From an uncultured Oscillospiraceae bacterium (GTDB taxonomy: Bacteria; Bacillota; Clostridia; Oscillospirales; Ruminococcaceae), in the NCBI GenBank assembly GCA_949299455.1, contig CASGAN010000010.1, forward strand, positions 1 through 45,311: 45,311 nt of DNA. Direction: 5' to 3'. The position numbers were made by a program, and so were the translations under genes. Below are positions 2,728-45,311 of this stretch, piece by piece. The notes beneath the pieces are model-generated. The model was not told where the DNA came from and did not search any database. It worked only from the letters and a program-made list of their open reading frames with translations. Position 1 is the stretch's first letter. Every line of letters starts with the position of its first letter.

Positions 2728-3546
2728 CTAATCGAATGATTCTGCAAACTGAAGCACATTGCAAAGCGGCAGTGCATCGAACAATACTTGCAGTGTTGCG
2801 GCACTATCTTCTTTATATTCTGTATATCCTACTTGAACGCTCGTTAACGGCTCTTCCCACAGTGTTTGCAGCATTGGCTCACTGGAATGTTCCTTATAAA
2901 CTGCATCGATTCCTGCTTGCCATTGATCTTTCAGTTCCTGCGGCAAGTCCGTTGTCTGCGCCTTGCTTCTCAGCCGCGTGGTCTTTTTAAATCCGATGAC
3001 ATTATCTGAATCGTAAATATCCCCATCGAGAAAAATTTCATTCATCGTCTTGCTTCCGTCCGACTGCTGTATGATTTGATGCAGATGCTGTTCTTTCTCA
3101 AATTCCGCCTGCTGACGGTCAAATTCAGCGGACAGTTCGCCGGACACGATTCCCTGGGCTTCTTCAAAGTTGCCCGCAATCAATTCATAATTTGTGCGCG
3201 AAGCATCATTGATATTGACCCAGACACGGCGCAGCGCCAGTGGATCTTCCTCATTCCATTTGGAAAAACACAGCTCAATTTCCGCTTCATACGACAAAAA
3301 TGTTCCCGGCACTGTATATGAAACCATATAATCGAACGTGTCAACGGAACCTGTTTGTGTCTTTTGTGCTTTTGATTCTTCTGTTTTCAAAGAAGCAAAT
3401 GCTTCTTCAGGCGTCATCATCCATCGAAGCTGCGGATAATTGAGCTCTCCGTATTCTGAAATCGTTGGCTCGGGTGCGCACGAAGTGAGCAGTAGCAAAC
3501 ACAACCCCATCGCCAGCAAAGTCATTCGCCGTGTGTTCTTGCTCAT
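2728..3546 (-). CDS. secreted lipoprotein of unknown function
   Basis: A 272-residue protein with a type II signal peptide: positive N-terminus, hydrophobic run, lipobox LLTSC with the lipidated Cys at residue 23. The mature part is acidic and Gln/Glu-rich, with no recognised enzyme motif. A segment near the middle (EFDRQQAEFEKEQ) is likely helical. The start is taken at ATG 3546 because GAGGTG lies six bases upstream; a TTG/ATG three codons earlier is less well placed. The gene has its own promoter and terminator, so it is a single-gene unit beside the opp operon. Function unknown; the surface location is the only supported inference. Confidence 0.8.
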   Translation of the reverse strand: MSKNTRRMTLLAMGLCLLLLTSCAPEPTISEYGELNYPQLRWMMTPEEAFASLKTEESKAQKTQTGSVDTFDYMVSYTVPGTFLSYEAEIELCFSKWNEEDPLALRRVWVNINDASRTNYELIAGNFEEAQGIVSGELSAEFDRQQAEFEKEQHLHQIIQQSDGSKTMNEIFLDGDIYDSDNVIGFKKTTRLRSKAQTTDLPQELKDQWQAGIDAVYKEHSSEPMLQTLWEEPLTSVQVGYTEYKEDSAATLQVLFDALPLCNVLQFAESFD

Positions 3547-3911: not shown

Positions 3912-5471
3912 TTATTCAATCACTGCGTGATCGAGCGGATGGTGACAAGCAACAAAGTGACCCGGACGAAGCTCACGGAACTCCGGTGTAACCATTTCAC
4001 ACTCTTCTGTGCAGTATTTGCAGCGTGTGTGGAACTTGCAGCCTTTCGGCGGACGAATCGGGCTCGGAATATCGCCTTCGAGCGGAATCGATTGTTTGCG
4101 GTTTTCCACATCGGTTGTCGGAATTGCAAGCAGCAGCGCCTCCGTATACGGATGAAGCGGATGATCGAACATCTCCTGCGATTCGCAAAGCTCAACCATA
4201 TTGCCAAGGTACATAACGCCGATTCGGTCACTGATATATTTGACGACGCTCAAGTCATGCGAAATGAACAAATATGTCAGGTTCTCTTTCTCTTTCAGAT
4301 CCTCAAGCAGATTGATGACCTGCGACTGAATCGAAACGTCCAGTGCGGAAACTGCCTCGTCACACACGACAAATTTCGGTTTCATTGCAAGCGAACGCGC
4401 AATACCGATACGCTGACGCTGACCACCCGAGAACTGATGCGGATAACGATGGATCATGTACGGTGCAAGACCGCAGTTATCCATAACCTGCATGACGTAA
4501 TCCTGAATTCGTTCGTCGTTTTTGGTAAAGAACTTATGGGTGATCGGACCCTCACCGATGATCTGACCAACGGTCATACGCGGGTTCAGCGAAGAATACG
4601 GATCCTGGAAAATCAGCTGCATATCGCGGCGAAGTTTGCGCATCTCAGAATACTCCAGGCGCGCCAAGTCAATACCGTCGCTGCGATGCTGTTCATATTT
4701 CTGGAAGTTCTCATCGCTTTCCATCTGTTTGCGGAGCGCTTCAATCTCAGCATGTGCCGCATCCAGATCTTTTTGCTTCGCTTCAATCTGGGAAAGAAGT
4801 GTTTTTGCCTGCGCATTCAGTGCAGAAACTTTCGACTCCAGTGAGGAAGTCGATTTTTTCGCTTCTTTGCGTGCAGCAATTTTTCCTTCCAGACAGTTTT
4901 TGCGAATCTCGATTTCATTCTCTTTTTCACGCAGTGCAATCATTTCGGTTGCAATGCCGTATTCTTTCAAATACGCTGCGGAAACCGGAGCAAGATCTTT
5001 GCAAACCAGCAAACCGCCAACCAAGTTTGCGAGGTCATACAGCTTTGTATCTGCTTCGCGCACAATTTTTGCACGGTCATCTGCATGCACTTTCTGATCG
5101 TGCTCGTTCATTTTTTCATAGGAAGCAAGATATTCCTGCTTTTTCTTCTGTGCCAAAAGCATCTGATCGCGCAAAGCAGCGAGCTTTTGATACGTGTGTT
5201 TTGCATATTTCGGCGCAACTTCGTTGAGTGTTCTGCCGAAATACATCGTTTTGCCCTCGGTCTGATGATACAGCTGAAGCAGCACGCGTCCGAATGTCGA
5301 TTTACCGCATCCGGATTCACCAACCAGACCCAGTGTCTCACCCTCATAAATATCAAGGGAAATGCCGTCGTTTGCACGAACATAAAGCTGTTCCTGGCGG
5401 ATTTTCTCCTTCTTCACAGGGAAATATTGTTTTAAGTTCGAAATTTGGAGCAATACTTTTTTATTTTGCAT
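3912..5471 (-). CDS. oppF: oligopeptide ABC importer ATPase OppF with a large internal insert
   Basis: One of two cytoplasmic ATPases powering peptide import. Core motifs are intact: Walker A GESGCGKST (51-59), Q-loop FQDPYSSLNPR (Q near 289), signature FSGGQRQR, Walker B FVVCDEAVSALD, switch His in ISHD. The OppD/OppF-type C-terminal segment has four Cys (GCKFHTRCKYC...C...C), as in ATPases of this family reported to carry an iron-sulphur cluster. At 519 residues it is about 190 longer than usual. The excess lies between the first beta-sheet subdomain and the normal IDLARLEYSEMRKLRRDMQ segment (residues about 82-266). It is rich in Lys, Glu, Ala and Gln with heptad-like patterns. The ATG overlaps the oppD stop region and has AAGGAGG upstream. 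The frame is continuous, so the insert is genuine. Confidence 0.92.
   Translation of the reverse strand: MQNKKVLLQISNLKQYFPVKKEKIRQEQLYVRANDGISLDIYEGETLGLVGESGCGKSTFGRVLLQLYHQTEGKTMYFGRTLNEVAPKYAKHTYQKLAALRDQMLLAQKKKQEYLASYEKMNEHDQKVHADDRAKIVREADTKLYDLANLVGGLLVCKDLAPVSAAYLKEYGIATEMIALREKENEIEIRKNCLEGKIAARKEAKKSTSSLESKVSALNAQAKTLLSQIEAKQKDLDAAHAEIEALRKQMESDENFQKYEQHRSDGIDLARLEYSEMRKLRRDMQLIFQDPYSSLNPRMTVGQIIGEGPITHKFFTKNDERIQDYVMQVMDNCGLAPYMIHRYPHQFSGGQRQRIGIARSLAMKPKFVVCDEAVSALDVSIQSQVINLLEDLKEKENLTYLFISHDLSVVKYISDRIGVMYLGNMVELCESQEMFDHPLHPYTEALLLAIPTTDVENRKQSIPLEGDIPSPIRPPKGCKFHTRCKYCTEECEMVTPEFRELRPGHFVACHHPLDHAVIE
4674..5228 (-). other. coiled-coil-like insertion within OppF
   Basis: Codons 82-266 of oppF encode about 185 residues absent from ordinary OppF. 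The part nearest the C-terminus (about 175-260) has repeated hydrophobic residues at 3-4 spacing (for example LLSQIEAKQKDLDAAHAEI), typical of a two-stranded coiled coil. The middle (LANLVGGLLVCKDLAPVSAAYL) is less charged and could be a hairpin tip. The site is between Walker A and the Q-loop, so the insert should project from the NBD edge into the cytoplasm. Confidence 0.75.
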
Positions 5472-6450
5472 GACGCGCCTCCTTCTCCGGATAGAAGCAA
5501 CGAATCATATGATTGTCTTCTACCTGCACAAGCTCCGGCTCTTCTTCCATGCAGCGCTCTGTGCAGTATTTGCAGCGCGGTGCAAATTTACAGCCTTTCG
5601 GCAGATCCAGCGGATGCGGCACAGCGCCCGGAATTGCCTCCAAGCGCACGCCTGCCGGCATGTCCAAACGCGGAATCGAAGTCATCAAGCCCTCTGTATA
5701 CGGATGCGAGTAGCTGTTTTTGCCGAAAATCGTGTCAACAGAAGCCATCTCGACCACCTGTCCGCAGTACATGACAGCCACGTCATCAGCCATTTCATTG
5801 ATAACGCCGAGGTCATGCGTAATGAACAGAATCGAAGTGCCTTTTTCGCGTTTGAGTTCGTTCATCAGGTGCAGGATCTGCGCCTGAATGGTTACGTCAA
5901 GTGCTGTGGTCGGCTCGTCTGCAATCAGCAGGTGCGGCTCACACGCTAATGCCATTGCGATCATGACCCGCTGACGCATACCGCCCGAAAGCTGGTGCGG
6001 ATACTGTTTTGCCACGGCTTCCGGATTCGGAATTTTCACGGCAGAAAGCATCTCGACCGCTTTTTTGAGCGCATCTTTTTTCTTCATGTGCTGATGCACA
6101 ATATAGGACTCAGCAATCTGTTTGCCGATCGTAAATACCGGGTTTAAGCTGGTCATCGGCTCCTGGAAGATGACCGAAATCTCATTGCCGCGGATTTTAT
6201 ACATCTCATCCATCGAACATTCTTTGATGTTCTTTCCGTTAAAGATGATTTCGCCGCTGTCAATATAGCCGTTGCCGTCAAGCAATTTGAGAATGCTCAT
6301 TGCCGAAACACTCTTGCCGGAACCCGACTCACCAACGACGCCAAGCGTTTTGCCCGCTTCAACCTGATAGGAAACGCCGTTTACCGCTTTGACGATGCCG
6401 CGTTTTGTTTTAAAATATGTGTGCAAATCGTGCAGCTCTAACAATGCCAT
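5461..6450 (-). CDS. oppD: oligopeptide ABC importer ATPase OppD
   Basis: A 329-residue ATPase of normal family length, partner of OppF. Walker A GESGSGKS (about 39-46), Q-loop FQEPMTSLNP, signature LSGGMRQR, Walker B LLIADEPTTALD and ITHD switch are all present. The C-terminal tail carries the OppD four-Cys motif (GCKFAPRCKYCTERC...C). It starts 12 bases after the oppC stop with an AGGAGG site, and its 3' end overlaps the start of oppF, so translation of the two ATPases is probably coupled. Unlike OppF it has no insert. Confidence in family is very high; substrate (oligo- versus dipeptide) is inferred. Confidence 0.95.
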   Translation of the reverse strand: MALLELHDLHTYFKTKRGIVKAVNGVSYQVEAGKTLGVVGESGSGKSVSAMSILKLLDGNGYIDSGEIIFNGKNIKECSMDEMYKIRGNEISVIFQEPMTSLNPVFTIGKQIAESYIVHQHMKKKDALKKAVEMLSAVKIPNPEAVAKQYPHQLSGGMRQRVMIAMALACEPHLLIADEPTTALDVTIQAQILHLMNELKREKGTSILFITHDLGVINEMADDVAVMYCGQVVEMASVDTIFGKNSYSHPYTEGLMTSIPRLDMPAGVRLEAIPGAVPHPLDLPKGCKFAPRCKYCTERCMEEEPELVQVEDNHMIRCFYPEKEARHAK

Positions 6451-6462
6451 CGACTATTCCTC

Positions 6463-8262
6463 CTATCTGTCGTTCGATCTCGGGTCGATTGCGTCACGCA
6501 GGCCGTCGCCGATCAGATTGATACTGATGGTAGACAAGCTGAGTGCGAGCGACGGGAAGACCCAACGCCACCAATAATTCTGGATAACTGTGGATGCCTG
6601 CGAACCGTTGAGCATGTTGCCCCATGTCGGTGTCGGCTCCACAACGCCGAAGCCCAAGAAGGAAAGCGACGATTCAATCAGCATACAAGAAGCGAATGCC
6701 AGCGTTGTATCGACAATAACAACTGTGATGACGTTCGGCAGAATATGTTTAAAGATAATCGACCATTCTTTGATGCCCATTGCTTTTGCAGCAGTGACGA
6801 ATTCTTTTTCACGCTCTGCCAGAATCTGTGCACGAACAAGACGTGCAAGCGGCGGCCACGAAAGCACACCGAGAATCACCATGATCACGGCGATACGCTG
6901 AATTTCTGTCAAACTGTTGCCGACGATAACGGACAAAATCATTGCAAACGGCAAGAACGGAATCGATGCAACGATCTCAGCAAGACGCATGAGAATGTTA
7001 TCCACTTTGCCGCCGTAGTATCCGGAGAAGCCACCGATGATGACACCGATGATCACGGAGATGATGACCGAAATCGCACCGATTGTCATGGTCATACGAC
7101 CGCCTGCGATCAAGCGGGTGAAAATGTCACGGCCAAAGCCGTCGGTACCCATCAGATAACCGGAAAGGCCGCTTGTGAGCACTTTTCCGTCTTCTGTGAT
7201 GATATAGTTCTGATAATAGCCATTGGCAATCTGCGCTGCATTTGTAACAGACGGAACTTTTGTCTGGCCGAAGTTATCTCTGCCCCATGCGATCACAGAG
7301 CCGTCTTCCAAAATCGCAGTATAATGATATCTGCCGGCACTGATCGATTTGATTTTGCCCTGTGCATTCTCCGGAACCAGTTTCTGACCATAGTCATCAC
7401 TGCCCCAAACGTACACTCTGCCATCTTTTGTCAGTGCAGCTGCTGTGTTGTCAGTCGAAGCGACATCAATGACATTGCCCTGAATTTCCTGCGGAATTTT
7501 GCTGAAAATTGTCTCTTTCGAAGAGAGTGCCGCAACGCTTCCATCCTCTAACAGTGCAACTGCTGTTGTACTGTTTGCAGCAATTTTTTCAATATTGCCC
7601 TGATGCTCACTCGGATTGACATCCAAAATGTTCTGGTTGCCCCACCAGTAAAGCTCGCCGTCCTCAGACACGACAAACGACATCTGATAACCGGCAACAA
7701 TCTGTTTAATCTGAACCATGCCGTTCAATTCAAGCGGAATCATGTCAAGACCCAGACGATCATAGCCCCATGTAAACACTTCATTGCGGTCATTGACTGC
7801 AAGCACATGGTTCAAACCAGCAGAAATCATTGTGAGTTTTCCCATTTTCGTGGGAACTTTCAGCAGTTTTTTATCCATCTGACCCCAGGAATAGTAGTTA
7901 CCGTCTTTGTCAATGCCAACACCGAACGTTGCGCCGCCCGAAATCTGTGCGACATTATTTTTCAGCTCATTCGGTACACTTGTCATTGTAAAGCCCGGTG
8001 CAATATTCTGCTGTGAAACATCCTGATAGGTTGCATCCAGCGGATAAAAAATCGGCAGAATAAAGCAGGAAAGGAAAATCACCAAAAAGGTAATGCTTCC
8101 GATCATTGCAATTTTATTTTGACGGAAGTTCCGTACAACAGTACGGAACGGGCTTTGCATCTGCTCCTCTTCCAGAACGGAAAGTTCACGTTTAGAGCCG
8201 AGGAAAATCCGACTGAACATCCGCGAAAAAGAGTTTGGCTTTTTCTTTTTTTGACTATTCAT
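6463..8262 (-). CDS. oppC: oligopeptide ABC permease OppC with an inserted RCC1-type beta-propeller
   Basis: A 599-residue inner permease, about twice normal size. A cytoplasmic N-terminus leads into TM1 (about 52-75). About 270 residues of RCC1-like repeats follow, and then the normal OppC body resumes at LMGTDGFGRDIFTRLI. That body has five further membrane segments and the EAA coupling loop (EFVTAAKAMGIKEWSIIFKHILPN). The start is placed at ATG 8262 because AAGGAGG lies just upstream of it; an in-frame ATG at 8286 has that site inside its own codons and overlaps the oppB end. The permease is otherwise complete, so the propeller is an insertion into the extracellular TM1-TM2 loop. It forms the membrane channel with OppB. 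Confidence 0.93.
   Translation of the reverse strand: MNSQKKKKPNSFSRMFSRIFLGSKRELSVLEEEQMQSPFRTVVRNFRQNKIAMIGSITFLVIFLSCFILPIFYPLDATYQDVSQQNIAPGFTMTSVPNELKNNVAQISGGATFGVGIDKDGNYYSWGQMDKKLLKVPTKMGKLTMISAGLNHVLAVNDRNEVFTWGYDRLGLDMIPLELNGMVQIKQIVAGYQMSFVVSEDGELYWWGNQNILDVNPSEHQGNIEKIAANSTTAVALLEDGSVAALSSKETIFSKIPQEIQGNVIDVASTDNTAAALTKDGRVYVWGSDDYGQKLVPENAQGKIKSISAGRYHYTAILEDGSVIAWGRDNFGQTKVPSVTNAAQIANGYYQNYIITEDGKVLTSGLSGYLMGTDGFGRDIFTRLIAGGRMTMTIGAISVIISVIIGVIIGGFSGYYGGKVDNILMRLAEIVASIPFLPFAMILSVIVGNSLTEIQRIAVIMVILGVLSWPPLARLVRAQILAEREKEFVTAAKAMGIKEWSIIFKHILPNVITVVIVDTTLAFASCMLIESSLSFLGFGVVEPTPTWGNMLNGSQASTVIQNYWWRWVFPSLALSLSTISINLIGDGLRDAIDPRSNDR
7141..7959 (-). repeat. seven RCC1/BLIP-II-like repeats inside OppC
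   Basis: Seven units of 34-41 residues, each approximating G-I-S-A-G-x-x-H-x-x-A-x-x-x-D-G-x-V-x-x-W-G-x-D-x-x-G-Q-x-x-V-P. The best are units five and six (VYVWGSDDYGQ, VIAWGRDNFGQ). Unit four has lost the W-G pair and unit seven is shortened where it joins the permease. Seven such units are the usual number for a closed seven-bladed propeller of the RCC1 and BLIP-II type. Confidence 0.88.
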
Positions 8263-8275
8263 CGCATCTTCCTCC

Positions 8276-9262
8276 TTAGTTTCCAAGTTTAACGCGCGGA
8301 TCGACCAGCATATAAGCCAAATCCATCAACAAGTTGCCTGCCAATGTGATGATAACATAGAACATCTGCATAGCAAGAACCACCATAAAGTCACGCTGCA
8401 TCAGCGCATCATACAATATTTTACCGATACCATTCCACAAGAAAATGGTCTCAATAACAACCGAACCGCCGAATACGCTGACCAGCCAGCCGGTCAGGAC
8501 GGTAACAATCGGAATGAGCGCATTGCGGAATGCGTGCGAATAAATGACAACTTTTTCGCGCAGACCTTTTGCACGAGCAGTACGGATATAATCCTGACGC
8601 AGCACATCAATCATTGCAGCACGCACATAACGGGTAATGCCGCCTAATGATGCAAATGTCATAACAATGCACGGCAATGCCATATGATACATTCTGTCAA
8701 TGAACACATCAAATCCATCGCCGGTCATGCCCGGTGCATTCATACCGCTGATTGGGAAAATCGGCATAAGATTTGCAAACAAGAAAATAAATAAAAGTGC
8801 GATAACAAAGCTCGGCAGTGAATAACCAACGACTGTTCCTACCTGCACTGTGTTATCAAGCGGACTGTTTTTCTTGACCGCCGTAATAATGCCAAGCGGA
8901 ATGGTGATCAAGAACACCAGTATCATGGACACCAGGTTTAACATGATCGTATTTCCCATCGGAACGCCGACAATCTGGGAAACCGGCTGACGATACTGCG
9001 TGGAAAAACCAAGGTCACCTTTTAGCATATTGGTAATCCAACTGACATACTGCACCGGCAGCGGCTTGTCCAGACCGAGCTGTTCTCTTGCCGCCTGATA
9101 CATTTGTTCATAACGAACCGGATCGACCGATTGTTTGGATGAGTCGATCATCATACGTGCCGGGTCACCCGGAACGCTTTTGTAAATAAAGAACATGATG
9201 ATTGAAACGATGAAGAATACAAACACCAAATAAAGCAGACGCTTTAAAACATATTTTGCCAT
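8276..9262 (-). CDS. oppB: oligopeptide ABC permease OppB
   Basis: A 328-residue permease with a membrane segment at the N-terminus (LLYLVFVFFIVSIIMFF), the conserved GDPA motif, five later membrane helices and the EAA loop (YIRTARAKGLREKVVIYSHAFRNALIPIV). It forms the translocation pore with OppC. The start is ATG 9262, which has GAGGTGAT seven bases upstream. The frame stays open about 53 codons further upstream, but that segment runs through hairpin-rich intergenic DNA and lacks family similarity. The stop overlaps the upstream in-frame ATG of oppC, so coupling with oppC is likely. Length and sequence are ordinary, with no insert. Confidence 0.95.
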   Translation of the reverse strand: MAKYVLKRLLYLVFVFFIVSIIMFFIYKSVPGDPARMMIDSSKQSVDPVRYEQMYQAAREQLGLDKPLPVQYVSWITNMLKGDLGFSTQYRQPVSQIVGVPMGNTIMLNLVSMILVFLITIPLGIITAVKKNSPLDNTVQVGTVVGYSLPSFVIALLFIFLFANLMPIFPISGMNAPGMTGDGFDVFIDRMYHMALPCIVMTFASLGGITRYVRAAMIDVLRQDYIRTARAKGLREKVVIYSHAFRNALIPIVTVLTGWLVSVFGGSVVIETIFLWNGIGKILYDALMQRDFMVVLAMQMFYVIITLAGNLLMDLAYMLVDPRVKLGN

Positions 9263-9514: not shown

Positions 9515-11368
9515 TTATTCTTCAATCCAAGAATACAGGATTGCACTCTCCCAGCCCCACAGACCGTCCGGCTCATAGCCTTTGATCTTGTTGGAGAAGA
9601 AGTCATGGTACTGATCAGAGTACAGCGGAATGTTCGGAAGCAATTCGTTGTAACGTTTCTGATACTCAACCCATTTGTCGAGCCAAGCTTCTTTGTCGTC
9701 AGACGGAATTTTCTTCATCTCGAGAGCAATTTTCTCGATCTCTTCGTCTTTGATGTAGTTCTGGTTGTAAGAACCGAAGTATTTCTCATCGGTGCTCATC
9801 TCGTACCAGTAAGACGGGATCGGAACGAATCCAGTTGCGAGGTTGAACATGTGATAAGTCGGTTTATCAATGCCCTGACGGTACATGTTGTTCAAAAGAA
9901 CGCCGAACTCAACAGTTGTCGGATTCAGTTTCATGCCGACTTTCTCCATCTCGCCCGGAAGCATGGTGTTTAACAGGTCAGAAACCGGGTTGTTCGGAGT
10001 GTTTGCCCAGTTGATTTCGAGTGCCATCAGTTCGCCGTTTACGTTTTTGTAACGAACTTTGTCAGTGCCTTCGACAAATTCGCCGCCTTTTTCGTTGAGG
10101 GTCCAGCCGTCAGCGATCAGGACTTCTTTTGCTTTGTCGAGGTCTTTGTTGTACGGATTCAGTTCAGAATCGATGACGTCTTTTCTCTCTTTGTATTCCA
10201 TCGAGGAAAGACCATATTCACCGTTTACAACCTGTGCGAAACCGCCGGAGTACTGTTTTGCAAACTCTGTACGGTCGAGGCAGTAAGCGATTGCCTGACG
10301 AACAGCTGTGAACTGTGTCGGACCAAAGTCACATGCGAATGTGATCTGGCCGTAGCCTGCACGCAGGTAAGAAGCATACTGTGCAAGATTTTCATCGCAG
10401 AGATCGCGGCCTGCGTTGATTGCTGTACCGCCGGAAACACCTGCGATCAGGTCAACTGTGCCGTTTTTGAGCTCATCCATCTGAGTTGCATCGGTAACAG
10501 ATTTGAGTACGATTTTCTCGATGGACGGTTTCACGCCGTCGTGTGTGCCTTTGAACTGATCGTTGATCTGCAGAACAGCCTGTTTGGTTGTTTTGTCGTA
10601 GCTTACGAACTCGTACGGGCCGCAAGTTACTTTCGGCTGATAACGATAGCCGGTTGCTGTATCGTTGATTGTTTTCTCGAGCAGCTCTGTTGTGAAGTTG
10701 TCCGAGATGGTTGCGCCGTTGCCGTCATCGGTGATGTCGCAGTCCGGTGCAATGACAGCCATCGGATACGGGTTGATTGCTGCATATGCGATATCGAAGT
10801 GGAACGGCAGCTCTTCAGCAACGATCTGAACCGAGAAGGTGTAGTCATCGATCAGACGAACGCCGGAGAATGTTTTTGTTTTGCCGTCAAAGTAATCCTG
10901 GTAACCTGTAAAGCAGTTTGCATAGGTCATTGTGTCCTGTGCTTCCAGAGCATAGTAAGCCGGTGCAGTGTGCAGCAGAACCGAGAAGACATAGTCTTTT
11001 GCGGTGATTGCTGTACCGTCGTTCCATTTCAGGTCTTTCTGAAGTTTCACAGTGAATGTTTTGGTGCCGTCTTCGTTGTCAACACCTTCAACAGATTCTG
11101 CAACCTGGTTGTCAACTTTGAATACGCCCTCTTTTGTGTAAGTAATCGGGGAATAGCCAAAGATGAGGTTGCGGATAGAAGCGTTCTGTGCACCGTTGGT
11201 CCAACCGTCCATCATGTTGTCATCGAGGTCTGTAACAGAACCGACAACGACCTGGCCGCCAACTTTGTGCTCAGTTGTTTTGCTCGACTCTTCAGACGGT
11301 GTGTTGTTGCATGCTGCAAACACAAACACCATCACAAGTGCAAGCACGAGTGCCAATGCTTTTTTCAT
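9515..11368 (-). CDS. oppA: oligopeptide-binding lipoprotein OppA (SBP family 5)
   Basis: A 617-residue extracellular solute-binding protein anchored by a lipid: signal peptide MKKALALVLALVMVFVFAAC with the lipobox Cys at 20, then a Ser/Glu/Thr linker. The body shows SBP5 features such as LKWNDGTAITAKDYVFS, AVRQAIAYCLDR and the C-terminal NIPLYSDQYHDFFSNKIKGY. It captures peptides and delivers them to OppBC. The start at 11368 is fixed by GGGAGGG upstream; an earlier in-frame start lacks a good site and would bury the signal peptide. It is first in the operon, with a strong promoter, and is separated from oppB by about 250 bases holding stem-loops. Confidence 0.95.
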   Translation of the reverse strand: MKKALALVLALVMVFVFAACNNTPSEESSKTTEHKVGGQVVVGSVTDLDDNMMDGWTNGAQNASIRNLIFGYSPITYTKEGVFKVDNQVAESVEGVDNEDGTKTFTVKLQKDLKWNDGTAITAKDYVFSVLLHTAPAYYALEAQDTMTYANCFTGYQDYFDGKTKTFSGVRLIDDYTFSVQIVAEELPFHFDIAYAAINPYPMAVIAPDCDITDDGNGATISDNFTTELLEKTINDTATGYRYQPKVTCGPYEFVSYDKTTKQAVLQINDQFKGTHDGVKPSIEKIVLKSVTDATQMDELKNGTVDLIAGVSGGTAINAGRDLCDENLAQYASYLRAGYGQITFACDFGPTQFTAVRQAIAYCLDRTEFAKQYSGGFAQVVNGEYGLSSMEYKERKDVIDSELNPYNKDLDKAKEVLIADGWTLNEKGGEFVEGTDKVRYKNVNGELMALEINWANTPNNPVSDLLNTMLPGEMEKVGMKLNPTTVEFGVLLNNMYRQGIDKPTYHMFNLATGFVPIPSYWYEMSTDEKYFGSYNQNYIKDEEIEKIALEMKKIPSDDKEAWLDKWVEYQKRYNELLPNIPLYSDQYHDFFSNKIKGYEPDGLWGWESAILYSWIEE

Positions 11369-11669: not shown

Positions 11670-13361
11670 ATGAAGTTTTCTGAAATGCCCTACAAGCGTC
11701 CGGATCTTGACACAATCCCAAAAGAGCTGGACGCACTGTGCGAAGCACTCAAAAACACACCGGATGCAGACGGTCAGTTTGCACTGTTTTTGAAATCGCG
11801 CGAAATTTTAAACACACTTGCAACGGAGTATTCGATCGCATACATCCGCAACACGGTCGATACAACCGACGCTTTTTATGAAGCAGAACGCGAAGCGCTT
11901 GACAATGCAATGCCGCTGTTGAACGAAAAAATCCTTGCATTCAGCAAGATGCTCTGCGAATCGCCGGTACGCAAGGAACTCGAAGACAAAATCGGTTCTC
12001 TGTGGTTTACGAATACGGAGCTTGAATTAAAAGGTTTTTCACCGGAGATTATTCCACTCATGCAGGAGGAAAGCCGTTTAGAAGCTGCCTATCAGAAACT
12101 GTATGCAAGCGCACAGATTCCGTTTGACGGAAAAGTCTGCACGATCCCGCAGCTTGCTGCATACAAACAAAATCCGGACCGCGCACTTCGCCGTGCCGCT
12201 TATGAGGCGGAAGGCAAATTCTTTGACGATCACCGCGAAGAATTCGACGATCTTTATACAAAGCTTGTCAAAAACCGTACCGAACAAGCAAAAGCACTCG
12301 GATTTGGCAGCTATGTAGAGCTCGGCTATATCCGCCGGATGCGCAACTGCTATGGTCCGAACGAGGTTGCAAACTTCCGCCGTCAGGTCATCGAAGATCT
12401 TGTTCCGCTTGTAAACAAAATCCGTGCTGCACAGGCAAAACGCATCGGCTGCGACGATCATTTCACGTTCGCCGACTTAATGTTTACCTTTAAAGACGGC
12501 AATGCAACGCCGCAGGGCACACCGGATGAACTGCTGGCAGCTGCAAAACAGATGTACACCGAGATGTCACCGGAAACTGCAAAATTCATCGAACTGATGT
12601 TTGAAAATGATCTGTTTGATGTACTGTCGAAACCGGGCAAAGCACCGGGCGGCTACTGCACCACACTGCCGGATTACAAATCGCCGTTCATCTTCTCGAA
12701 TTTCAACGGCACCTCGGATGACGTCGATGTGCTCACCCACGAAGCAGGCCACGCATTCGCGGCTTATATCGATACCCACGAGCATCCGATTGAAAAACAG
12801 ATGGAGCCGACCTACGAAACCTGCGAAACACACTCCATGTCGATGGAATTTTTGACCTCGCCGTATCATCATCTGTTCTTTAAAGATCAGACTGCGAAGT
12901 ACGAGCTGTCCCATACAGAAGACGCGCTGGCATTCATCCCGTACGGCACAATGGTCGATCACTTCCAGCAGCTCATGTACGAAAAACCGGACATGACACC
13001 GGAGGAACGCAACCAGACTTGGGCAGAACTCGAAAAACAGTACCGCCCGTATATCGATTTTGACAATCTCCCGTTCTACGGCCGCGGTGCAGGCTGGCAG
13101 CGTCAGCTCCACATCTACACAAGCCCATTCTATTATATTGATTACTGCCTGGCACAGACCGTTGCACTCCAGTTCTTCGCACTGTTCTTGAATGATGCGA
13201 AGAAAGCATGGGAAACGTATGTCGCGTTCGTCCGTTCGGGCGGCACCAAGACATTCGTGGACACCGTTCATGCAGCAGGCTTAAAATCCCCGCTTGAAGA
13301 TGGCTGTTTAAAAGAAATCACCGAAACAATCGCCGCTTGGCTCGATACTCATCAGATCTGA
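11670..13361 (+). CDS. pepF: oligoendopeptidase F (M3 zinc metallopeptidase)
   Basis: A 563-residue cytosolic peptidase that cleaves medium-length oligopeptides. The M3 zinc motif HEAGH lies at about 357-361 within LTHEAGHAFAAY, with the third zinc ligand in the downstream ETCETHSMSMEF helix. The N-terminal half is the helical PepF lobe. No signal peptide. The start is ATG 11670 behind AAAGGAAGG; an upstream in-frame GTG has no site and would precede the transcription start. It lies divergent to the opp operon, consistent with the two acting in series on peptides (import, then hydrolysis), although no shared operator was identified. Confidence 0.95.
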   Translation: MKFSEMPYKRPDLDTIPKELDALCEALKNTPDADGQFALFLKSREILNTLATEYSIAYIRNTVDTTDAFYEAEREALDNAMPLLNEKILAFSKMLCESPVRKELEDKIGSLWFTNTELELKGFSPEIIPLMQEESRLEAAYQKLYASAQIPFDGKVCTIPQLAAYKQNPDRALRRAAYEAEGKFFDDHREEFDDLYTKLVKNRTEQAKALGFGSYVELGYIRRMRNCYGPNEVANFRRQVIEDLVPLVNKIRAAQAKRIGCDDHFTFADLMFTFKDGNATPQGTPDELLAAAKQMYTEMSPETAKFIELMFENDLFDVLSKPGKAPGGYCTTLPDYKSPFIFSNFNGTSDDVDVLTHEAGHAFAAYIDTHEHPIEKQMEPTYETCETHSMSMEFLTSPYHHLFFKDQTAKYELSHTEDALAFIPYGTMVDHFQQLMYEKPDMTPEERNQTWAELEKQYRPYIDFDNLPFYGRGAGWQRQLHIYTSPFYYIDYCLAQTVALQFFALFLNDAKKAWETYVAFVRSGGTKTFVDTVHAAGLKSPLEDGCLKEITETIAAWLDTHQI

Positions 13362-44731: not shown

Positions 44732-44806
44732 GGAGCTGATAACCAGATTCGAACTGGTGACCTCGTCCTTACCAAGGACGTGCTCTGCCTACTGAGCCAT
44801 ATCAGC
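44731..44806 (-). tRNA. tRNA-Thr (GGT)
   Basis: Full cloverleaf: acceptor GCTGATA/TATCAGC, anticodon stem CGTCC/GGACG with loop TTGGTAA (anticodon GGT), T-arm GTTCGAATC, encoded CCA. 76 nt. Confidence 0.95.
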
Positions 44807-44808
44807 AA

Positions 44809-44885
44809 TGGCGACCCGCATCGGGCTCGAACCGACGACCTCTAGCGTGACAGGCTAGCGCTCTAACCAACTGAGCTAGCGGGCC
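44809..44885 (-). tRNA. tRNA-Asp (GTC)
   Basis: Acceptor GGCCCGC with GCGGGTC (one wobble), anticodon stem CTAGC/GCTAG with loop CTGTCAC (anticodon GTC), T-arm GGTTCGAGCC, encoded CCA. 77 nt. Confidence 0.95.
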
Positions 44886-44888
44886 AAC

Positions 44889-44964
44889 TGGCAGGGGTTA
44901 AAGGACTCGAACCTTTGGCACGCGGTTTTGGAGACCGCTGCTCTACCAACTGAGCTAAACCCCT
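44889..44964 (-). tRNA. tRNA-Trp (CCA)
   Basis: Acceptor AGGGGTT/AACCCCT, anticodon stem GCGGT/ACCGC with loop CTCCAAA (anticodon CCA), T-arm GGTTCGAGTCC, encoded 3' CCA. 76 nt. Confidence 0.95.
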
Positions 44965-44983
44965 ATAAACGATCATGCAATAA

Positions 44984-45060
44984 TGGTGGGCCTTCAGGGA
45001 CTCGAACCCTAGACCGTCCGGTTATGAGCCGGATGCTCTAACCAACTGAGCTAAAGGCCC
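44984..45060 (-). tRNA. tRNA with CAT anticodon (probably tRNA-Ile2, else elongator Met)
   Basis: Acceptor GGGCCTT/AAGGCCC, anticodon stem TCCGG/CCGGA with loop CTCATAA (CAT), encoded CCA, 77 nt. The acceptor has C4-G69 and C5-G68, the pairs recognised by the lysidine synthetase TilS in E. coli tRNA-Ile2, which favours Ile2 over methionine. This assignment is inference. Confidence 0.9.
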
Positions 45061-45094
45061 GAATGTGTCCGCCTACCACGGAACTGCATGAAGT

Positions 45095-45123
45095 ATTATA
45101 TAACATAGAACCAAAAATGTCAA
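45095..45123 (-). promoter_or_regulatory. strong promoter of the tRNA cluster
   Basis: Perfect TTGACA, exactly 17 nt, perfect TATAAT on the minus strand, about 35 bases before the first tRNA. The cluster therefore does not depend on the rRNA operon transcript. Confidence 0.85.
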
Positions 45124-45176
45124 GAGAAATCTTTTCATTTTCATTGATTCTATGTGGAGAATCAAGATTCAACAAA

Positions 45177-45202
45177 TGCGTTGTCTCGTTTGAAACAACG
45201 CA
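45177..45202 (-). terminator. stem-loop after the 5S rRNA
   Basis: 8-bp stem TGCGTTGT/ACAACGCA with a ten-base loop and a short T-rich tail (TTTGTTG), 15 bases past the 5S end. Possibly the rRNA operon terminator or a processing stem; the tail is weak. Confidence 0.5.
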
Positions 45203-45216
45203 CTGTCGATCATTGT

Positions 45217-45311
45217 GACGGCGTCTATCTATCTTCCCGGGCCGTCTCCAGCCAAGTATTTTCGACGCTAATGAGCTTAACTTCTGTGTTCGGGATGGGA
45301 ACAGGTGGATC
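45217..45311 (-). rRNA. rrf: 5S ribosomal RNA, 3' part (cut by the window edge)
   Basis: The minus strand reads GATCCACCTGTTCCCATCCC, then GAACACAGAAGTTAAGCTC and CTTGGCTGGAGACGGCCCGGG, the standard 5S core and helices. The 5' end lies beyond the window. The exact 3' end is placed within a few bases by comparison with the usual terminal stem. The rest of the rRNA operon should lie to the right on the same strand. Confidence 0.93.

Follow-up and report, generated by a model that had tools for sequence, protein, structure and literature searches.

What would a peptide importer gain from a beta-propeller built into one of its membrane subunits? The question is raised by the permease gene oppC in a 45,311-nucleotide stretch of DNA (hereafter the window; contig CASGAN010000010.1 of assembly GCA_949299455.1), which forms part of the 2.2-Mb genome of an uncultured Oscillospiraceae bacterium. 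Structures have been solved for importers of this type, the nearest known systems being the Opp and Dpp type I importers of Escherichia coli (OppBCDF, 8z21; DppABCDF, 8z1y) and Mycobacterium tuberculosis (OppABCD, 8j5q). Relative to these, the window's importer has about 275 extra residues in the loop between transmembrane helices 1 and 2 (TM1 and TM2) of OppC, and about 130-189 between the Walker A motif and the Q-loop of the ATPase OppF. Its known parts are an Opp importer and a propeller resembling BLIP-II (beta-lactamase inhibitory protein II) and RCC1, and its interest lies mainly in the pairing of an outside with an inside addition. In this lineage of gut and other anaerobic bacteria the importer combines an external propeller with an internal helical arm, and no description of such a design was found in the literature searched. 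An importer so built amounts to a natural experiment in how a permease holds its binding protein.

A propeller within the OppC reading frame

The gene and its parts are as follows.

6463..8262, minus strand: oppC, permease of 599 amino acids with a propeller inserted in the TM1-TM2 loop
8047..8115, minus strand: OppC TM1 (residues 50-72), from hydropathy and a helix in the model
7168..7953, minus strand: seven-bladed BLIP-II/RCC1-like propeller (residues 104-365), from Pfam, repeats, model and fold matches
6466..7158, minus strand: OppC permease core from residue 369, with the GTDGFGRD motif and BPD_transp_1, aligned to E. coli OppC

The frame is open from an ATG at 8262, with AAGGAGG a few bases upstream, to a stop at 6463. 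This start gives the 599 amino acids listed; the open reading frame as called, from an earlier TTG, has 607. Along the protein, Pfam finds OppC_N (residues 37-89; 6.3e-12, 45.6 bits, cut-off 23.9), then RCC1_2 repeats (1e-41, 140.1 bits, cut-off 22; five stretches each pass alone), then BPD_transp_1 (residues 406-595; 1.9e-35, 122.7 bits, cut-off 26.4). Searches of the PDB with phmmer match this single protein both to E. coli OppC (3.1e-51) and to BLIP-II (2.9e-30). The best NCBIfam match, Opp4C (NF045476), scores 318.1 bits, below its curated 350, and no NCBIfam model exceeds its cut-off for OppA, OppB, OppC or OppF among the best 25 of 27 families for OppC and the best 25 of 185 for OppF.

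Seven repeats make up the insert. The tryptophan of the WG signature, or its equivalent, falls at residues 126, 165, 207, 246, 286, 326 and 364, a spacing of 38-42. Repeats 4 and 7 are degenerate in the window's gene (LSS and TSG), and column 364 is tryptophan in 40 of 45 alignment rows. Within residues 104-365 the structure model places seven sets of three strands, the pattern of a seven-bladed propeller. Conservation is greatest in blade 7 (mean entropy 1.60) and least in blade 4 (2.03), which lies opposite the anchor in sequence order. An aromatic residue, tyrosine or phenylalanine, is frequent at positions 192, 314 and 350, and Y353 is present in every one of 45 rows; all four positions lie at or beside turns of blades 3, 6 and 7.

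The insertion appears to have left the surrounding permease whole. In the phmmer alignments, residues 75-366 take the place of residues 62-79 of E. coli OppC, the N-terminal of the two alignments (-0.9 bits) being not significant on its own. In the structural alignment (VIA-align), all 278 of 278 residues of 8z21_B pair with the model between residues 35 and 594. On this predicted structure, the native TM1-TM2 loop is kept beside the insert. By homology with E. coli OppC, and given a basic OppC N-terminus (12 K/R against 4 D/E in residues 1-55), the propeller would lie outside the cell; a cytoplasmic placement is rejected on the same two observations. The closer structural match of the modelled propeller is BLIP-II rather than RCC1. 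BLIP-II itself (3qi0, 3qhy, 1jtd) is a separate inhibitor, whereas the propeller described here forms part of a permease. The likeness is one of sequence and predicted fold, and we make no claim of beta-lactamase inhibition.

Much of this had been anticipated by the initial annotation, which read the locus as an OppC permease with an extracellular RCC1/BLIP-II-like propeller in its TM1-TM2 loop. Its uninterrupted frame, with seven repeats between TM1 and GTDGFGRD, is confirmed by the open ATG-to-stop frame, Pfam, phmmer, the repeat spacing and the model, and its limits for the propeller, 7141-7959, were right to within about 30 bases. The OppC identity, the TM1-TM2 position and the propeller fold, which prediction returned as expected, also hold, and the repeats fall outside rather than in the cytoplasm as judged by homology. 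The likeness to RCC1 and BLIP-II stands on Pfam, phmmer and fold, with BLIP-II the nearer of the two. Overlooked were the OppF arm and the fact that the fusion is an old subfamily present in many genomes. No published description of a permease-propeller fusion was found among the matches listed from open-licence PubMed Central full texts, subscription papers being outside that scope; PMC9682168 makes no mention of RCC1.

Distribution of the fusion and its companion arm

The fused gene stands within an operon on the minus strand, together with a divergent peptidase gene.

9515..11368, minus strand: oppA, peptide-binding protein (SBP_bac_5, Pfam), the proposed docking partner, with a lipobox-like start judged by eye
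8276..9262, minus strand: oppB, permease of ordinary length, 328 amino acids (Pfam, NCBIfam)
5461..6450, minus strand: oppD, ATPase without arm (Pfam; Walker A to Q-loop spacing 54 in locus L002)
3912..5471, minus strand: oppF, ATPase with an inserted helical arm, 519 amino acids
4677..5231, minus strand: OppF arm (residues about 81-265) between Walker A and Q-loop, main helices 97-119, 130-156, 161-203 and 209-250
11673..13361, plus strand: M3 oligoendopeptidase (TIGR02289, 552.1 bits, cut-off 442.35; Pfam)

An SBP_bac_5 protein, OppB, OppC and two oligo_HPY ATPases together make this an Opp/Dpp operon, and the order A-B-C-D-F recurs in relatives wherever the locus extends far enough. Domain content and operon identify it as a predicted importer of peptides. 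The 2.2 Mb hold a single OppC_N match and two oligo_HPY ATPases, which makes it, on sequence evidence, the sole Opp-type oligopeptide importer found in the genome. The M3 enzyme probably cuts imported peptides.

Of 148 genomes drawn from the family, 16 carry a full-length fusion, as do 17 of 391 from the class and 14 of 398 from the phylum, the window's own genome being included each time; 12 of the last 14 lie outside the class. Among the loci kept from the genome collection they number 45 of 79, as called by a pattern and a floor of 450 amino acids. The closest named record to the window's OppC is Merdimmobilis hominis An559 (97% identity over OppC). Fusion records also include Soehngenia longivitae, Acetivibrio ethanolgignens and Clostridium sp. 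Cult3, as well as metagenome-assembled genomes of Roseburia, Tissierellia and Oscillospiraceae. The same fusion in independent genomes rules out an assembly artefact and stands in for the resequencing by which the initial annotation would have checked that the insert is genuine.

In a tree of 111 permease cores (104 of them different), a single branch, supported at 100/100, sets the 62 fusion rows (own-genome and near-identical ones included) apart from all others, which leaves many separate origins unsupported. The bootstrap had not settled (0.977). No row in the fusion clade lacks the propeller; the query in the searches was, however, the entire fusion, which favours rows that have it. Nearest to the clade is a group of 12 rows, whose own fork is supported at 98/71, unstarred. 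Eight of the 12, all OppCs of same-family genomes (L020-L024 and L026-L028), carry other long inserts at the same place. Three of these inserts were scanned (L020, L022, L023); they have no Pfam match and are thus not RCC1-like by Pfam, in contrast to the RCC1_2 repeats here. The TM1-TM2 loop seems to be a place where domains can be added.

Selection has acted on both additions. The ratio of non-synonymous to synonymous substitution (dN/dS) is 0.05-0.12 for the propeller (estimable in four of five pairs), 0-0.10 for the permease core (five of five) and 0.06-0.08 for the OppF arm (three of five), synonymous sites being saturated in the wider pairs. These ratios point to purifying selection on the propeller.

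OppF is 519 amino acids long, against 325-352 in plain OppF-type ATPases, and its model shows the four long helices listed above, with blocks above 90 in the predicted local distance difference test except two at 80-83. In all 37 OppF frames of at least 400 amino acids from fusion loci, Walker A and Q-loop are 183-242 residues apart, compared with 54 in the OppD of the same loci (58 in L072); in the plain OppF-type ATPases of the set the spacing is 49-52. The count of 37 excludes shorter frames that lie at contig ends, are broken or come from short loci, examples being L048, L060, L064 and the loci with short flanks, L002-L017. The aligned OppF rows run mostly from stop to stop and so include residues before the start codon. 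Across the 391 class genomes, with three candidates scored per genome, the 17 genomes in which the arm was seen are those that have the propeller, and no genome with the arm lacks the propeller among the matches listed. Sixteen are clear, their match reaching model position 10 or lower; the match in G319 is partial, starting only at position 235 of the model, in a frame of 474 amino acids. Outside the class, nine of the 11 loci fetched have the arm, counting L158, whose frame breaks later; of the others, one has a broken OppF frame (L155) and one ends before OppF (L164). G820 falls outside these 11.

Outside the arm, OppF matches E. coli OppF (TMt 0.87), and a fold search with the whole protein returned ATP-binding cassette ATPases in the best 50 rows listed. 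The arm has only weak Pfam matches, below cut-off. No paper on OppF insertions was found in the literature searched. Mycoplasma OppF also carries long insertions.

Candidate roles for the propeller

Our favoured reading is that the propeller serves OppA as a docking platform, a proposal based on position by analogy and on co-variation, to which we give about an even chance of being right. A seven-bladed, BLIP-II-like propeller, added to the outward TM1-TM2 loop of OppC, would act as a rigid platform that keeps loaded OppA seated on OppB and OppC. Blades 1, 6 and 7 would form the anchored side, and blades 2-5 would face OppA. A coiled-coil arm is present on OppF, the ATPase that pairs with OppC by homology; its role may be to touch some partner in the cytoplasm or to adjust ATPase activity. 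The pairing is known from E. coli Dpp, in which DppB pairs with DppD and DppC with DppF (PMC12136057); by homology, propeller and arm would both belong to one half of the transporter.

The positional analogy is with the pneumococcal Ami importer. We take AmiD to be its OppC-type and AmiC its OppB-type subunit, and the propeller presumably extends the equivalent of AmiD's coil between TM1 and TM2. An AlphaFold model of Ami shows that coil (residues 64-99) touching the binding protein at lobe 2, and the ectodomains of AmiC, ECD1 and ECD2, are proposed to clamp the same protein (PMC11192437). The propeller resembles the latter in being a large ectodomain in an importer permease (AmiC residues 31-278). 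In Ami, however, the large ectodomain belongs to AmiC, and AmiD has a short coil (PMC11192437), whereas here it is OppC that is enlarged and OppB that is ordinary. By analogy, the importer may work like the AmiC clamp. It is not AmiC, given an ectodomain in an OppC-type gene beside an OppB of 328 amino acids.

Contact was probed indirectly, by partial correlations of distance matrices. Of 56 loci, 43 held complete operons, and 40 remained after near-copies were removed; this run controlled for slow regions and for other fast regions. OppA and propeller correlate at 0.40 (0.31-0.49 in 5-95% of subsamples). OppA and the scoop loop of OppB, a positive control based on the scoop-DppA contact solved in E. 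coli Dpp (PMC12136057), correlate at 0.30. Pairs assumed not to touch give lower values (OppA-arm 0.11, propeller-arm 0.19, propeller-scoop 0.13, arm-scoop 0.13), and with plain p-distances OppA-propeller rises to 0.56, with OppA-scoop at 0.29. Split by blade, the correlation with OppA reaches 0.22-0.33 for blades 2-5, is low for blade 1 (0.13) and is absent for blades 6 and 7 (down to -0.04). Together with the conservation of blade 7 and the variability of blade 4, this pattern fits an anchored membrane side and a variable side that follows OppA.

Several observations weigh against docking. When distances are replaced by ranks, OppA-propeller (0.22) no longer stands out, since OppA-scoop (0.23), propeller-arm (0.23) and propeller-scoop (0.21) match it. 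In a first run of 35 operons, controlled for slow regions only, OppA-propeller reached 0.55 (0 of 2000 permutations), but OppA-arm also reached 0.36 (p 0.0005) and propeller-arm 0.34 (0 of 2000). These three pairs cannot all be contacts, and because all lie beyond nearly all permutations, significance alone fails to tell contact apart from a common pace of change. For blade 3, co-variation with the arm (0.27) equals that with OppA (0.26), and the signal spreads over most of OppA (0.07-0.41 by segment) instead of one lobe. The arm is near saturation (mean distance 1.39) and is therefore weaker as a control; correlations of distance matrices are in any case indirect, and the pairs of genomes lack independence. 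A propeller is not needed by ordinary Opp importers to work, and docking leaves the OppF arm unexplained. The co-variation is suggestive but not robust: it supports docking, which the initial annotation had also proposed, indirectly and short of demonstrating the contact.

Other roles deserve consideration. The propeller might recruit a partner other than OppA, such as a second binding protein, a surface peptidase or the cell wall, and so place the importer where peptides arise. BLIP-II and RCC1-like propellers do bind varied proteins, judging by the titles of the matched structure entries, and the genome's second SBP_bac_5 protein, which is beside a carboxypeptidase and has no permease nearby (see below), may share the window's importer. 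We nevertheless consider recruitment doubtful, as the propeller co-varies with the operon's own OppA (within the limits of ranks, arm and independence noted above), and blade 4, where one would look for the mark of a conserved partner outside, is instead the most variable. A bolder idea, and an unlikely one, is that propeller and arm are two ends of one sensing device on the same transporter half: the propeller would read loaded OppA or a surface ligand, and the arm on OppF would pass that state to a cytoplasmic partner, reporting on or gating import. If true, a nutrient importer would also be a transmembrane sensor. The weak propeller-arm co-variation in the 40-operon run speaks against it, and because the fusion has one origin in the tree, the co-occurrence of propeller and arm may be one double gain that was kept.

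The aromatic residues by the turns of blades 3, 6 and 7 could be read as a surface on which the propeller binds or screens peptides ahead of OppA. Some of them may instead be core residues of the repeats, and substrate binding is already supplied by OppA, making this role quite improbable. It is highly improbable that the propeller is mere neutral decoration of a loop tolerant of inserts: the long inserts of the eight neighbouring OppCs would suit such an idea, but purifying selection on the propeller argues against it, as does the absence of propeller-less rows from the fusion clade, with the query bias already described. On its own, the propeller should make a small and easily tested domain.

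Other features of the genome and window

The second SBP_bac_5 protein of the genome (L145:2361-4010, G000:C5) adjoins an S66 LD-carboxypeptidase, and no permease lies in the 10 kb covered around it. A second RCC1-repeat protein (L144:2777-4015, G000:C5) has 412 amino acids, seven repeat stretches that each pass alone and, judged by eye, a hydrophobic stretch near its N-terminus.

Within the window, oppF is followed by a lipoprotein-like open reading frame (2728-3546, minus strand) with no NCBIfam match. When relatives of seven window proteins were sought in a neighbourhood comparison of fusion loci, this one had relatives only in L032 and L034 among the loci compared. Promoter-like sites number 20 against 13.8 in shuffles (standard deviation 3.7) and terminator-like sites 12 against 10.3 (standard deviation 3.6); we draw no conclusion from either. 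Four tRNA genes and a 5S rRNA (Rfam) occupy the end of the window (44734-45311, minus strand).
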